Source of the DNA: Lutibacter sp.
GTDB taxonomy: Bacteria > Bacteroidota > Bacteroidia > Flavobacteriales > Flavobacteriaceae
Assembly: GCA_027449025.1 (NCBI GenBank)
Contig: DAIDMK010000002.1
Coordinates: 1-64,000 of the forward strand
Reading direction: 5' to 3'
Length of the DNA stretch: 64,000 nt
The notes under the pieces were generated by a model. It was not told where the DNA came from and searched no databases. It saw only the letters and a list, made by a program, of their open reading frames with translations. This document shows, piece after piece, positions 52,828 through 56,798 of this stretch. How positions within the stretch are numbered: the stretch's first letter is position 1; every line of letters starts with the position of its first letter. The position numbers and the translations under genes were made by a program.

Positions 52828-53456
52828 GAGAAAAGCTCGAAAAATATTTTTCATTTGTGTTTGAAAAAGAATTGCTTGATGAAATAGTTCAAGTGGGCGT
52901 TTATAAAAAGTTACGCGAAAATGAAGTATTGGTTGATTTAGGCGATAAAATGAAAGGTATTCCTTTATTGTTGGAAGGAGCAATTAAGATTGTGAGGGAA
53001 GATAAAAATGGAGATGAAATGTTGCTATACTTTTTAGAACGTGGTGATACTTGCGCCAGCTCTTTTGCAAGCGCGCTCACAAATGGAAAATGCGGTATTA
53101 GAGCAATGGCCGAAAAAGAATCTGAAATTATTTTTCTTCCTAAAGAAAAATTAGATGAATGGATGGTGAAATATAAATCCTGGAGAAGTTTTGTAATTGA
53201 TAGCTACAATATTCGTCTAAATGAAATGATGGAAACTATTGATAGCTTGGCTTTTATGAATATGAGCGAGCGACTTTATAAATATTTGACTGATAAAGCT
53301 CAAATTATGCGAGAAACCTCATTAAACACTACACACCAAGACATTGCCTATGATATGCATACTTCTCGTGTTGTAATTTCACGATTGCTAAAACAACTAG
53401 AAAACGAAGGAAAAATAAAGTTGCACAGAAATAAGATTGAGATACTTGAATTTTAA
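52824..53456 (+). CDS. Crp/Fnr family transcription regulator 1
   Basis: The 210-residue regulator has an N-terminal cyclic-nucleotide-binding-like domain (VLVDLGDKMKGIPLLLEGAIKI) and a C-terminal winged HTH (HQDIAYDMHTSRVVISRLLK). The recognition helix SRVVISR lacks the Glu found at the CRP position. Cysteines are at about 77 and 90 and may help redox sensing, but there is no FNR-type four-cysteine cluster. It overlaps the waaA stop by 4 bases. A CRP-type operator lies just after its stop, before the YeeE gene. The paralogue at 55,121 has the same length. Confidence 0.92.
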   Translation: MREKLEKYFSFVFEKELLDEIVQVGVYKKLRENEVLVDLGDKMKGIPLLLEGAIKIVREDKNGDEMLLYFLERGDTCASSFASALTNGKCGIRAMAEKESEIIFLPKEKLDEWMVKYKSWRSFVIDSYNIRLNEMMETIDSLAFMNMSERLYKYLTDKAQIMRETSLNTTHQDIAYDMHTSRVVISRLLKQLENEGKIKLHRNKIEILEF

Positions 53457-53461
53457 GTTGC

Positions 53462-53504
53462 GTGATGACAATCACAAAACAATTTAATTTTTAAGATAAT
53501 TTTG
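53462..53504 (+). promoter_or_regulatory. CRP-type operator and promoter upstream of the first YeeE gene
   Basis: GTGAT-GACA-ATCAC (53,462-53,475) is a perfect CRP-like dyad with GTGA and TCAC six bases apart. TAATTTTG (53,497-53,504) lies 21 nt further on, placing the dyad centre near -41.5 of the expected start. The same arrangement, with 20 of 23 bases identical, occurs at 63,763. Confidence 0.7.
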
Positions 53505-53524
53505 ATCGTTTTAAATGTTTAACT

Positions 53525-54082
53525 ATGGATTTTATTATGCAGCCTTGGGAATGGTATGTTGCCGGACCCGTAATTTCGTTTATCATGTTTTTGCTATATT
53601 ATTTTGGTGAACGATTTGGGGTGTCATCAAATCTGGAAACATTTTGTTCTATTGGCGGAGCTGGAAAGTTTGTCGACTATTTTAAAATTGACTGGAGAGA
53701 GAATCTTTGGAATTTAATTTTTATTGCTGGCTCCATTGTTGGTGGTTTTATAGCCTCTAATTATTTAACAACAACCGATGCTGTTGCCATAAATCCACAA
53801 ACAGTACAAGATTTGGCCGATATTGGCATTGTAAATGCAGGTCAAACATATTTGCCCGATGAAATCTTCAGTATTGAAACCATGCTTTCTTTAAAAGGAT
53901 TTATAATTTTAATCATCGCTGGTTTTTTGGTTGGTTTTGGTGCGCGTTGGGCTGGTGGTTGCACATCTGGTCACGCAATTGTTGGTTTGAGTAATTTGGA
54001 GCTTCCTTCTTTAATCGCAGTAATTGGTTTTTTTATAGGAGGCTTGGTGATGACCTGGCTAATTTTACCCTTAATATTTTAG
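53525..54082 (+). CDS. YeeE/YedE family transporter, part 1
   Basis: The 185-residue membrane protein has about five helices. The family motif is GFGARWAGGCTSGHAIVG (about 138-155) with a conserved cysteine that is thought to relay thiosulfate. Residues PQTVQDLADIGIVNAGQTYL lie in a loop. In YeeE/TsuA the substrate is thiosulfate; here two half-size genes are separated (53,525 and 54,615), each with one cysteine motif, probably forming one transporter. Expression is probably controlled by the CRP-type operator upstream. The assignment to sulfur compounds is by family. Confidence 0.9.
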   Translation: MDFIMQPWEWYVAGPVISFIMFLLYYFGERFGVSSNLETFCSIGGAGKFVDYFKIDWRENLWNLIFIAGSIVGGFIASNYLTTTDAVAINPQTVQDLADIGIVNAGQTYLPDEIFSIETMLSLKGFIILIIAGFLVGFGARWAGGCTSGHAIVGLSNLELPSLIAVIGFFIGGLVMTWLILPLIF

Positions 54083-54172
54083 GATCATGAAACGCATAAG
54101 ACTTAGGATCTTTAAAAATTTGGAAATGATAATGAGCGATCCATTTGACAAAAAAACAATAGAAAATAACAA

Positions 54173-54438
54173 ATGAACCGAGCATAACAAATTTTGATAC
54201 ACAGAGGGATGATTAATAGCGAACTGCATCTGTTACCAACAAAAAACTAAAATTTAAACAGATGAACCGAGCATAACAAATTTTGATACACAGAGGGATG
54301 ATTAATAGCGAACTGCATCTGTTACCAACAAAAAATAAAATATAAACAGATGAAACGAGCGATACAAATTTTGACACACAAAGAAATGATTAATGGCGAA
54401 CTGCATCTGTTACCAACAAAAAACTAAAATTTAAACAG
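54173..54438 (+). repeat. Tandem copies 1 to 3 of an 88-bp repeat with micro-ORF and hairpin
   Basis: Three units stand head to tail: 54,173-54,261, 54,262-54,349 and 54,350-54,438 (89, 88 and 89 bp). Each starts at an ATGAA, has an AGAGGG or similar purine run, then ATGATTAAT(A/G)GCGAACTGCATCTGTT. The micro-ORF encodes MIN(S/G)ELHLLPTKN. CATCTGT near its end can pair with ACAGATG at the unit end, which contains the next ATG. Between the first YeeE stop and 54,172 nothing else is visible. Confidence 0.75.
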
Positions 54439-54527
54439 ATGAAACGCCTATAACAAAATAATCTAACAGAAAAAAGAAAGATACTAAGCGTTCCATTTGA
54501 CAAATGAAAAACAATAAAAAATAGCAA

Positions 54528-54614
54528 ATAAAACGAGCATAACAAATTTTGATACACAGAGGGATGATTAATGGCGAACTGCATCTGTACCAATAAAAAA
54601 TAAAATATAAACAG
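54528..54614 (+). repeat. Copy 4 of the 88-bp repeat, upstream of the second YeeE gene
   Basis: This unit (87 bp) ends exactly at the start codon of the gene at 54,615. The micro-ORF reads MINGELHLYQ and stops early. CATCTGT pairs with ACAGATG, in which ATG is the start codon of the YeeE gene. The unit is preceded by a segment (54,486-54,527) that also resembles the DNA before copy 1 (54,135-54,172). Confidence 0.75.
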
Positions 54615-55028
54615 ATGAAATATATAAAATTTTTTTTAGTGGGCATTCTTTTCGGAATAGTCATGAGCAAGTCCGAAATAATTTCATGGTATAGAATATA
54701 CGAAATGTTTAAGTTTCAGTCGTTTCATATGTATGGAATTATTGGCTCTGCGATAGTGCTTGGGATGATAAGCATGTTTTTATTTAAGAAAAATATGGTT
54801 AAAACTTTCAAGGGCGAAGAAATATATGTCACACCTAAAAAAGAGGGATTGTCTCGTAACCTTTTTGGCGGAATTTTATTCGGATTGGGATGGGCATTGG
54901 CCGGTGCTTGTCCGGGTCCCATGTTTGTTTTAATAGGAAAAGGCATTGTTTCCATTTTGGTGGTCATTTTTGGCGCTACTTTGGGTGCATTTTTTTACGG
55001 AGTTTACAGGGATAGATTACCCCATTAA
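54615..55028 (+). CDS. YeeE/YedE family transporter, part 2 (DUF6691-type)
   Basis: The 137-residue protein has four helices and the motif GGILFGLGWALAGACPGPMFVL (about 92-113), where the cysteine is that of the family. It is the second half of the transporter that begins at 53,525. Its start codon lies inside a repeat hairpin (CATCTGT/ACAGATG), which could limit translation. The fifth repeat copy follows 5 bp after the stop. Start at 54,615 is supported by the repeat boundary and by the N-terminal hydrophobic stretch (IKFFLVGILFGIVM). Confidence 0.9.
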   Translation: MKYIKFFLVGILFGIVMSKSEIISWYRIYEMFKFQSFHMYGIIGSAIVLGMISMFLFKKNMVKTFKGEEIYVTPKKEGLSRNLFGGILFGLGWALAGACPGPMFVLIGKGIVSILVVIFGATLGAFFYGVYRDRLPH

Positions 55029-55033
55029 TAAAG

Positions 55034-55120
55034 ATGAACCGAGCATAACAAATTTTGATACACAGGGGAATGATTAATGGCGAACTGCATCTGTACCAGC
55101 TAAAAAATAAAATTTAACAG
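55034..55120 (+). repeat. Copy 5 of the 88-bp repeat, upstream of the second crp-like gene
   Basis: This unit (87 bp) again ends exactly at the start codon of the next gene (55,121). The micro-ORF reads MINGELHLYQLKNKI, slightly longer than in the other copies. CATCTGT pairs with ACAGATG, which contains the crp start codon. Confidence 0.75.
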
Positions 55121-55753
55121 ATGAAAATACACGACATTATTGTAACTAATTTTTCAGGAATATTCGAGGAAAATTTACGAACTGAAATTTGCAACAATGG
55201 TATTTTAAAATCTGTTGAGGCGGATAAAATAATATTGGATGTTAGGACGGATATAGAGTTTATCCCCTTAATTATTTCCGGAATTGTAAAAGTAATGCGA
55301 CGTGACGGAAAAGGAAACGGTATTTTTTTGCATTATTTATCCCAAAAACAAACCAGTGCAACTGCTGTGACTTATGCAATAGAAAACATAAAAAGTGACA
55401 TTAGGCTTGAAACTGAAAGTAACGTTATGTACATTGCAATTCCGTCAAAAGTTGTAATTTCGTGGTTTTTAAAATATAGCACATGGCGTTCTTTTTATTT
55501 TAAATTGAATCAACAGCAAACAGCTTATTTAATTGAAAAAATTAATGATATCGCTTTTGAAAATTTAGAGTTTAGGCTGATAAAATATTTGGAATATTCC
55601 AGTTTAATAAGCAATAAAAACACAATAAGTAAAAAGCATTTTGACATTGCGCGCGATTTAAAAGTTTCTCGGGAAGCCATATCAAGGGTTTTGGGAAAAC
55701 TGGAAAAAGACGAAATAGTAACATTGGGAAGAAATAAAATTATTTTGAATTAA
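55121..55753 (+). CDS. Crp/Fnr family transcription regulator 2
   Basis: The 210-residue regulator has the same length as the one at 52,824 but is clearly divergent. The C-terminal HTH reads HFDIARDLKVSREAISRVLG. The recognition helix SREAISR matches CRP (SRETVGR) at Arg, Glu and final Arg, the residues that contact GTGA half-sites, so it is the better candidate for the operators at 53,462 and 63,765. Cyclic nucleotide contacts are weak in the N-terminal part. The stop is also the first base of moaA (shared A), so they are coupled. The start codon is in the repeat hairpin. Confidence 0.9.
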   Translation: MKIHDIIVTNFSGIFEENLRTEICNNGILKSVEADKIILDVRTDIEFIPLIISGIVKVMRRDGKGNGIFLHYLSQKQTSATAVTYAIENIKSDIRLETESNVMYIAIPSKVVISWFLKYSTWRSFYFKLNQQQTAYLIEKINDIAFENLEFRLIKYLEYSSLISNKNTISKKHFDIARDLKVSREAISRVLGKLEKDEIVTLGRNKIILN

Positions 55754-56739
55754 TGGAGTTATTAGACAAATTTGGAAGAAAAATCACCTATTTGCGATTG
55801 GCAATCACTGATCGTTGCAACTTGCGTTGCCAATATTGTATGCCAGCTCAAGGAATTGACATTGTTGACAGAACAGAACTCCTTTCTTATAAAGAAATGT
55901 TCCGAATTACCCGCGTACTATCTGAATTAGGCGTTAATAAAGTGCGTTTAACCGGCGGAGAACCTTTTGTGAGAAAAGATTTTATAAATTTTTTGGAATC
56001 ACTGTCTTTTAATGACAAACTCGAGGAAATTAACATCACCACAAACGGCGCTTTAATTTCAAATCATATCGATAAATTAGAATCATATAAAATCAATGCC
56101 ATTAATTTGAGTTTGGACAGCCTTCAGAAGGAAAAATTCGAAAAAATTACACGGCGAGATGTTTTTGACAGTGTTTATGATACTTTTGAAAAGTTGGAGA
56201 AAAGCAATTTAAAATTAAAATTAAATGTCGTTGTGCAGTCTGGTGTAAATACCGATGAGATTATCGATTTTATTGAACTTACCAAAAATAAGGATATTGC
56301 TGTTCGTTTTATTGAAGAAATGCCTTTTAACGGTAAAGGGCAAAGAGCTATTTCAGAAGTTTGGAATTTTAAAAAAATATTAAATCACATAAAAAATCAG
56401 TATGCGGATATTGATCCTATTTTATCCAAAAAATCTTCTACATCCGTAAATTATCGCATTCCAAATTACCAAGGAACTTTTGGCATTATCCCTGCGTTTA
56501 CCCGCACTATTTGTAGTGATTGTGATCGGATTCGCATTACATCCACTGGTTTGTTTAAAAATTGTTTGTTTGATGGCGGCGTTTTTAACGTTCGTGATTT
56601 TATAAGAAATGGTGCGAGCGATGACGAACTAAAAAAACTGTTTATTGACACTGTTCATCACAAACCTGAGAACGGATTTATTGCTGAAGCTGCCCGAGGA
56701 AACGCTGTTTCAGAAAGTATGTCCACAATTGGAGGGTAA
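55753..56739 (+). CDS. moaA: GTP 3',8-cyclase MoaA
   Basis: The 328-residue radical-SAM enzyme makes the first intermediate of molybdenum cofactor from GTP. It has the N-terminal cluster CNLRCQYC (ITDRCNLRCQYCMP at about 18-31), the SAM-binding TGGEPFVRKDF and the C-terminal cluster with C-x2-C and a later C (TICSDCDRIRIT and NCLFDGG). The C-terminal GG (STIGG) needed for activity is present. It is coupled to the upstream crp-like gene by a one-base overlap and is followed by moeA. Confidence 0.97.
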   Translation: MELLDKFGRKITYLRLAITDRCNLRCQYCMPAQGIDIVDRTELLSYKEMFRITRVLSELGVNKVRLTGGEPFVRKDFINFLESLSFNDKLEEINITTNGALISNHIDKLESYKINAINLSLDSLQKEKFEKITRRDVFDSVYDTFEKLEKSNLKLKLNVVVQSGVNTDEIIDFIELTKNKDIAVRFIEEMPFNGKGQRAISEVWNFKKILNHIKNQYADIDPILSKKSSTSVNYRIPNYQGTFGIIPAFTRTICSDCDRIRITSTGLFKNCLFDGGVFNVRDFIRNGASDDELKKLFIDTVHHKPENGFIAEAARGNAVSESMSTIGG

Positions 56740-56798
56740 ATCAATTGACAATTAACAATCTACAATTAAAAATTAACAATTGATAATCACTAATTACT

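Follow-up and report, generated by a model that had tools for sequence, protein, structure and literature searches.

A small repeat at ATGAA start sites of Lutibacter genes is very probably a non-autonomous mobile element

Repeat units in front of yeeE2 and crp2

The 64-kb stretch of Lutibacter sp. DNA analysed here (the window) contains two genes, yeeE1 and yeeE2, whose products both match Sulf_transp in Pfam, and further downstream a gene for a Crp-like helix-turn-helix protein, crp2. The original prediction described five repeat units of 87-89 bp in this region, three of them in tandem, with the fourth and fifth ending in the start codons of yeeE2 and crp2, respectively; the sequence bears this out on all points. 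When unit boundaries are counted from directly after one ATGAA through the next ATGAA, the features of the region are as follows:

54087..54091, + strand: ATGAA that borders the array on the left, in the old start region of yeeE2 (sequence)
54092..54177, + strand: degenerate B unit (the profile match covers 54126-54173; the left part by sequence only)
54178..54266, + strand: A unit 1, 89 bp, with an ATGAA end (sequence and profile)
54267..54354, + strand: A unit 2, 88 bp (sequence and profile)
54355..54443, + strand: A unit 3, 89 bp (sequence and profile)
54444..54532, + strand: B unit, whose junction to the following A unit is ATAAA (profile match)
54533..54619, + strand: A unit 4, whose final 5 bases are the yeeE2 start ATGAA (sequence and profile)
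54582..54587, + strand: left stem arm of unit 4, CATCTG (sequence; covariation within the family)
54612..54617, + strand: right stem arm of unit 4, CAGATG, containing the start codon (sequence; covariation within the family)
54615..55028, + strand: yeeE2 (Sulf_transp / DUF6691), with its start codon supplied by the end of unit 4 (Pfam)
55039..55125, + strand: A unit 5, whose final 5 bases are the crp2 start ATGAA (sequence and profile)
55088..55093, + strand: left stem arm of unit 5, CATCTG (sequence)
55118..55123, + strand: right stem arm of unit 5, CAGATG, containing the start codon (sequence)
55121..55753, + strand: crp2, Crp-like helix-turn-helix (Pfam, 26.9 bits, just below the cut-off of 27)

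The array begins 4 nt past the stop codon of yeeE1. In addition to the five units previously described, which we call family A, it includes two related units of a second family (B) that had been overlooked, and the order before yeeE2 is B-A-A-A-B-A; one further A unit sits between yeeE2 and crp2. All five A units of the window keep both the micro-ORF MIN(S/G)ELHL and the arms CATCTG...CAGATG, the ATG of the right arm being either the start codon of the gene or the start of the next unit, but the earlier statement that every copy keeps them does not extend to the family as a whole. Rfam gave no match on the units and a single sub-threshold match within 53400-55800, outside of them. Short tandem repeats with periods of 7 and 21 were also seen in the window at 56742-56796, directly 3' of a moaA-like gene.

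Anatomy of the unit and a related family

In an alignment of 40 divergent copies, the target is followed by ACGAGCAT, each column of which is at least 90% invariant. The centre of the unit reads GCGAA, followed by CATNTG and ACC, after which an A-rich stretch leads to the right end, CANATGAA. The alignment was derived from 133 candidates, of which 44 were kept as non-redundant; five were left out for insertions or for shifted or odd ends (L078, L299, L307, L336 and L338), and L071 was added, which gave 40 rows. Terminal inverted repeats were found neither by a search for repeats of at least 20 nt nor by eye, and a MITE with inverted repeats was therefore rejected as an identity for the unit.

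Units of family B have ends similar to those of A and are also inserted at gene starts, where they occur alone (L167, L175, L176) or as the last unit (L161, L174, L178). This family matches 14 of the 38 Lutibacter genomes, several of them weakly, and is most conspicuous in G023, with 31 matches and several arrays in which B and A alternate. Most of the B-to-A junctions displayed read ATAAA rather than ATGAA, which suggests that a B-A pair may move as a dimer. G+C-rich palindromes of differing sequence are nested in some units (L117, L143, L169, L177, L178, L063, L065, L355, L359), at nearly one place, namely inside the CATNTG arm or in the interval that separates it from GCGAAC.

Family size and spread

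With one A unit as the query, 63 matches were obtained in the Lutibacter sp. genome (one weak profile match was dropped), and 62 units were mapped there, grouped into 42 arrays with one to five units each; two of the 62 are partial, at contig ends, and were excluded from the alignment, leaving the 60 units analysed below. A sequence-only model gave at least 114 matches in the same genome. In the genus Lutibacter the unit was found in 32 of 38 genomes, the window's genome included, with at least 1319 matches in total (summed by hand) and more than 40 matches in each of 14 genomes; because at most 111 candidates were scored per genome, the high counts are lower bounds. Two genomes from another family of the order also match at E 0.01 (26 matches in G037 and 8 in G052), and among the matches listed by a scan with the unit pattern the contigs are mostly from Lutibacter, the others being assigned to Flavobacteriaceae, Flavobacteriia, Bacteroidetes or Gelidibacter. 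The best copies of 30 genomes include diverged ones in which the ends are kept, and divergent copies mostly retain both ends.

The genes preceded by units are unrelated to each other. As the unit is dispersed through the genus, a local duplication of a regulatory region was rejected, and so was phage or plasmid cargo, since one unit found no match at E 0.01 in phage and plasmid collections and a search of viral contigs with one unit pattern returned no exact match. Among the papers listed by searches of the open-licence literature, none describes the element in its title or at the start of its abstract, which by itself does not demonstrate its absence in print.

Filled and empty orthologous sites

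Four genes, those for NAD kinase, asd, crp2 and yeeE2, were compared upstream of the start codon in 30 fetched loci per gene, from the 35-37 genomes with a match. At all four, most relatives run directly into ATGAAA, and the carriers read ATGAA followed by one or more units that end in ATGAA. According to a strict profile, which leaves remnants and variants such as those seen by eye in L503 (yeeE2) and L493 (crp2) uncounted, there are 4 filled and 26 empty loci for NAD kinase, 3 and 27 for asd, 5 and 25 for crp2, and 3 and 27 for yeeE2, where one of the three filled loci carries a B unit. In four cases (NAD kinase in G000, G014 and G004, and asd in G001) the 20-nt left flank is identical between the filled and the empty site (20/20 bases). 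The agreement is less good in the other cases, with 18 and 19 of 20 bases at NAD kinase and asd, 16-18 at three crp2 loci, and 15, 18 and 19 at yeeE2, the value for the window array, left of 54087..54091, being 18 in comparison with the empty site L507. At two crp2 loci (L475 and L477) the flank could not be used for comparison, either because of an interruption of the unit or because what stands in the flank is a remnant of a unit.

Some loci depart from this simple pattern. Before asd, L118 and L119 carry no unit, yet by eye right-end-like bases abut the ATG, as might be left by the imprecise loss of a unit. Before yeeE2, L503 and L509 carry a further unit variant with GTTCCATCTG and an AATCAG-ATG end. 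A gene that we read as fabD has B units at its start in L147, L148 and L167, and a CATGTG-type A unit in L306.

From their N-termini, we take the host genes to include asd, alaS, coaD, fabD, lpxB, mnmA and the gene for NAD kinase. In well-studied bacteria several of them are essential genes, which suggests that the genes behind units probably stay expressed.

Target sequence and preference for gene starts

Of the 160 distinct sites, 10 are too close to the end of the locus, which leaves 150 for analysis. The right edge reads ATGAA plus one base in 145 of 149 readable sites (ATGAAA in 136), and the left edge does so in 140 of 149. The orientation is fixed, and the insertion lies 3' of a fixed short target that is retained in the left flank. 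The flanking ATGAA may be a retained target or a 5-bp duplication, and the sequences would fit both.

At 132 of the 150 sites the unit is placed at a gene start: the right ATG opens a reading frame that measures 60 aa or more, or that runs open to the end of the locus, in 128 of the sites, and a frame of 51-55 aa in 4 more. At three of the 128 (L059, L070, L201), removal of the unit leaves a frame that is open for 42-49 codons upstream as well. The remaining 18 sites comprise some that, as we read them, fall within a reading frame or at its end (L057, L065, L219) and some that are ambiguous; in L057 the left edge is ACGAA, within a reading frame. As a background, 93 of the 823 ATGAAA outside units in 395 kb of the Lutibacter sp. 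genome (11%) are possible starts, and 93 of the 171 non-genic ones in the same 395 kb (54%), where "possible start" follows a generous rule and the gene models are ORF heuristics. Because 132 of 150 exceeds the non-genic background of 54% (binomial p 8e-19), the excess of start sites is clear. Its size is rough, since the sites sampled are mostly the best-scoring copies, some represent one ancestral insertion shared by several genomes and are not independent, and the gene models are heuristic.

The base after the target is A in 136 of 145 ATGAA sites, compared to 90 of 136 first ATGs of reading frames that begin with ATGAA, and the frequency of G at position -1 is 0.23 at sites of A units versus 0.05 at native starts. 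A role of the CATNTG arm in selecting the target base at -1 was considered and dropped: at this position CATGTG copies show about one C in 29 flanks (by eye), and some of the flanks are what is left of earlier units.

The micro-ORF and the stem over the start codon

The original prediction suggested that each unit could be a translational switch, with a hairpin that masks the start codon and that would be opened or hidden by a ribosome translating the micro-ORF. The peptide MIN(S/G)ELHL, however, is encoded in only 13 of the 60 units of the Lutibacter sp. genome and its ATG is kept in 49. The variable positions mostly alter amino acids, and there is little third-position excess, since the mean entropies of codon positions 1, 2 and 3 are 0.24, 0.20 and 0.29. 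The frame that begins at the left ATG of the unit, which reads ATA in six of the 60 rows, stops after 4 codons in 18 units and after 10-27 in 41, and does not stop within the unit in one; this frame does not look conserved as a peptide either. A peptide-coding micro-ORF was consequently rejected.

The stem fares somewhat better. In the 60 units the arms are exactly CATCTG and CAGATG in 34 and the stem is weak, inexact in the other 26; CAGCTG is combined with CAGATG in 18. No compensation was found among these units, in 20 of which the T-A pair is broken. The divergent copies do show the compensating changes expected of a conserved stem, but at one pair of six and at none of the other five: the nucleotide preceding ATG and its partner directly 3' of CAT are GC in 20, CG in 15, AU in 2, UA in 1 and UG in 1 of the 40 copies, and unpaired in 1. 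This alignment includes one row added by hand that counts for the stem (L071, CATTTG/CAAATG) and leaves out two that would count against it (L078 and L299, without the CANATG right arm). In 500 shuffles, the covariation score, the number of paired cells and the number of cells changed on both sides were each reached by none, the number of pair types by 47, and the number of pairs changed on both sides (one) by all 500; these covariation measures are inflated by the relatedness of the sequences, and the three pairs that touch the ATG can hardly vary. RNAalifold predicted the stem neither in the 60-unit alignment nor in the divergent one, for which no consensus hairpin was obtained, and the two leaders of the window, whose folding had been proposed as a check, fold no better than shuffled sequences (z 0.58 and -0.45). 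With DNA parameters, the right-end stem appears in 3 of 5 folds and no such stem at the left end, with z-scores from -1.52 to 0.66.

At 37 C the median accessibility of the start codon is 0.138 behind units (n=144) versus 0.213 at native ATGAAA starts (n=73; Mann-Whitney p 0.019). Together with the covariation at one stem pair, this slight reduction is what would be expected if the mobile unit also dampened initiation, so that insertions lowered the expression of host genes. We consider such an effect possible but rather unlikely, as the difference is small, the two genes of the window deviate in opposite directions (yeeE2, at 0.273, is above the native median, and crp2, at 0.005, far below it), and the hosts include genes that we read as essential.

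That the unit is primarily a conserved switch seems improbable to us. Such a switch would explain why the covarying pair occurs in all four Watson-Crick types, why B units carry CATTTG arms together with CANATG ends, and why at 20 C starts behind CATCTG copies are less accessible (median 0.010, n=73) than those behind CAGCTG copies (0.071, n=55). It is difficult to reconcile with units that precede unrelated genes and were not found at most orthologous loci, with a micro-ORF peptide and exact arms kept in 13 and 34 of the 60 units, respectively, and with a stem that neither alignment predicts. Of the original functional proposal, the stem is partly borne out by the covarying pair, and a switch as the main function is not supported, a side effect on initiation being possible. 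Instead, we infer that the stem would mainly be a feature of end recognition, because it is part of the right end of the element whatever gene follows, and because in IS608 the ends are defined by pairing of an internal guide with the cleavage site, as passages of one article describe (PMC5934647).

Candidate movers

No transposase could be tied to the unit, and the link to the Y1_Tnp family is one of co-occurrence: it is present in 13 of the 14 genomes with more than 40 units versus 7 of the 24 others (Fisher p 0.0002, for related genomes whose kinship was ignored). The exception is G017, a genome 88% complete with 70 units and without Y1_Tnp. None of the ten fetched tnpA loci (L181-L190) contains a unit, and one unit lies about 1.5 kb from a Y1 gene at G000:C12 (L270). 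Two other potential partners were rejected, namely IS110 (PF02371 in 6 of the 14 genomes with more than 40 units versus 10 of the 24 others, Fisher p 1.0) and reverse transcriptase (PF00078 in 5 of 14 versus 10 of 24, Fisher p 1.0).

Several observations concern the Y1 loci themselves. In L189 (G023:C256), seven tandem units of 122 bp, at about 1834-2684 of the locus, precede a Y1 transposase gene; each of these units seems to include the start codon of that gene and the codons that follow it, which makes them a further instance of tandem repeats of a start codon. L182, L183, L186 and L269 hold IS200-like elements, about 550 bp long, that have G+C-rich terminal inverted repeats and ends unlike those of the unit. 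Y1_Tnp matches also occur within open frames of more than 1000 residues (G000:C12:15880-16200, and similarly in other genomes).

A REP-like repeat spread by a RAYT (TnpA-REP) would share with the unit its high copy number, its intergenic location and the tracking of copy number by Y1_Tnp. We nevertheless regard this identity as very improbable: by eye the units contain no short palindrome with a GTAG-type tag, insertion takes place at one pentamer, and a unit is present at the gene in only 1 of 17 RAYT-like loci, with one more locus having units about 1.3 kb away. On this count a RAYT-flanked REP was rejected. In the one locus concerned, L249 (G001:C10), an A unit sits directly at the start of the RAYT-like gene, and the rebuilt start codon is GTG.

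A proposed mobile element of gene starts

We propose that the unit is very probably a very small non-autonomous mobile element, which inserts in one orientation directly after ATGAA, mostly at gene starts. The insertion, its exact target and orientation, the rebuilt start codon, the dispersal and the tandem arrays are established by comparison of the sequences. A gene conversion or recombination that copies the leader between start regions without transposition would explain why the unit ends in an A-rich leader like that of many native starts, but it is most implausible in view of the cleanest cases, in which filled and empty alleles share the left flank as far as the base beside the ATG, and of sites away from starts, such as L057.

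Because the mobile element ends on the right in ATGAA, with an A-rich leader before it, a gene that receives an insertion obtains a rebuilt start codon and another 5' leader, and its old start codon stays upstream, where it opens a short ORF; and because the start codon is rebuilt, a unit can precede housekeeping genes without breaking them. The tandem arrays would lengthen as further copies insert at the right ATGAA of an older unit, and B-A pairs would move together as dimers. The tandem copies of the window, which the original prediction considered might be dead or spare switch units, are better regarded as an array of the mobile element. The excess of start sites could reflect selection, as insertions elsewhere break genes, on top of the choice of target, and the covarying CATNTG...CANATG arms would serve the recognition of the right end. 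As to the last step alone, a single-strand transposase of the IS200/IS605/HUH type may move the unit in trans, which we suggest with some reserve. Equally tentative is the broader view that these units are a distinct kind of mobile DNA dwelling at start codons, which targets ATGAA, carries a leader and a copy of the target, has its end defined by a CATNTG arm read against the base before the ATG, and has rewritten the starts of many genes across the genus.

An element that rebuilds the start codon on which it lands would escape the usual filtering of mobile elements from genes and could swap the 5' leaders of genes repeatedly. The filled and empty alleles of sister species therefore offer a natural experiment on translation initiation in Bacteroidota, and this mode of targeting is worth seeking in other genomes. 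They also carry a warning, namely that short upstream ORFs or leader stems beside start codons can be the ends of mobile elements.

Comparison with known systems

Leaders with uORFs or attenuators and RNA thermometers also combine a stem at the start codon with a short upstream ORF. The unit differs from them in that it is not shared by orthologous genes, its peptide is not conserved, and the units match nothing in Rfam. Rickettsia palindromic elements are small repeats tolerated by genes as well, but they are located within the coding sequence, while the unit is found at the start codon. With MITEs the unit has in common that it is short, non-autonomous and dispersed, and it differs from them by its lack of terminal inverted repeats (in the search for at least 20 nt and by eye). 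It also resembles REPs and REPINs in being small, abundant and for the most part intergenic, and many of the genomes that carry it have Y1 transposases too. However, REPs are palindromes of 20-50 nt that follow a tetranucleotide, most often GTAG, according to passages of a published account (PMC8266576), whereas the unit measures 88 bp, is non-palindromic and is bound to starts.

A close parallel is provided by the IS200/IS605 family and its non-autonomous derivatives. IS608 and ISDra2 are described as inserting directly 3' of a fixed sequence that is kept in the left flank, TTAC for IS608 and TTGAT, with G as the next base, for ISDra2 (PMC5934647). Like them, the unit inserts 3' of a fixed short sequence in the left flank, with a preference for the next base, and it possesses an internal arm complementary to its right end. 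On the other hand, it has neither the pair of end hairpins nor a transposase of its own, its target is the context of a start codon, and its right end repeats the target and thereby rebuilds that codon. With these differences in mind, a mechanism similar to that of IS200/IS605 would fit the target pattern of the unit.
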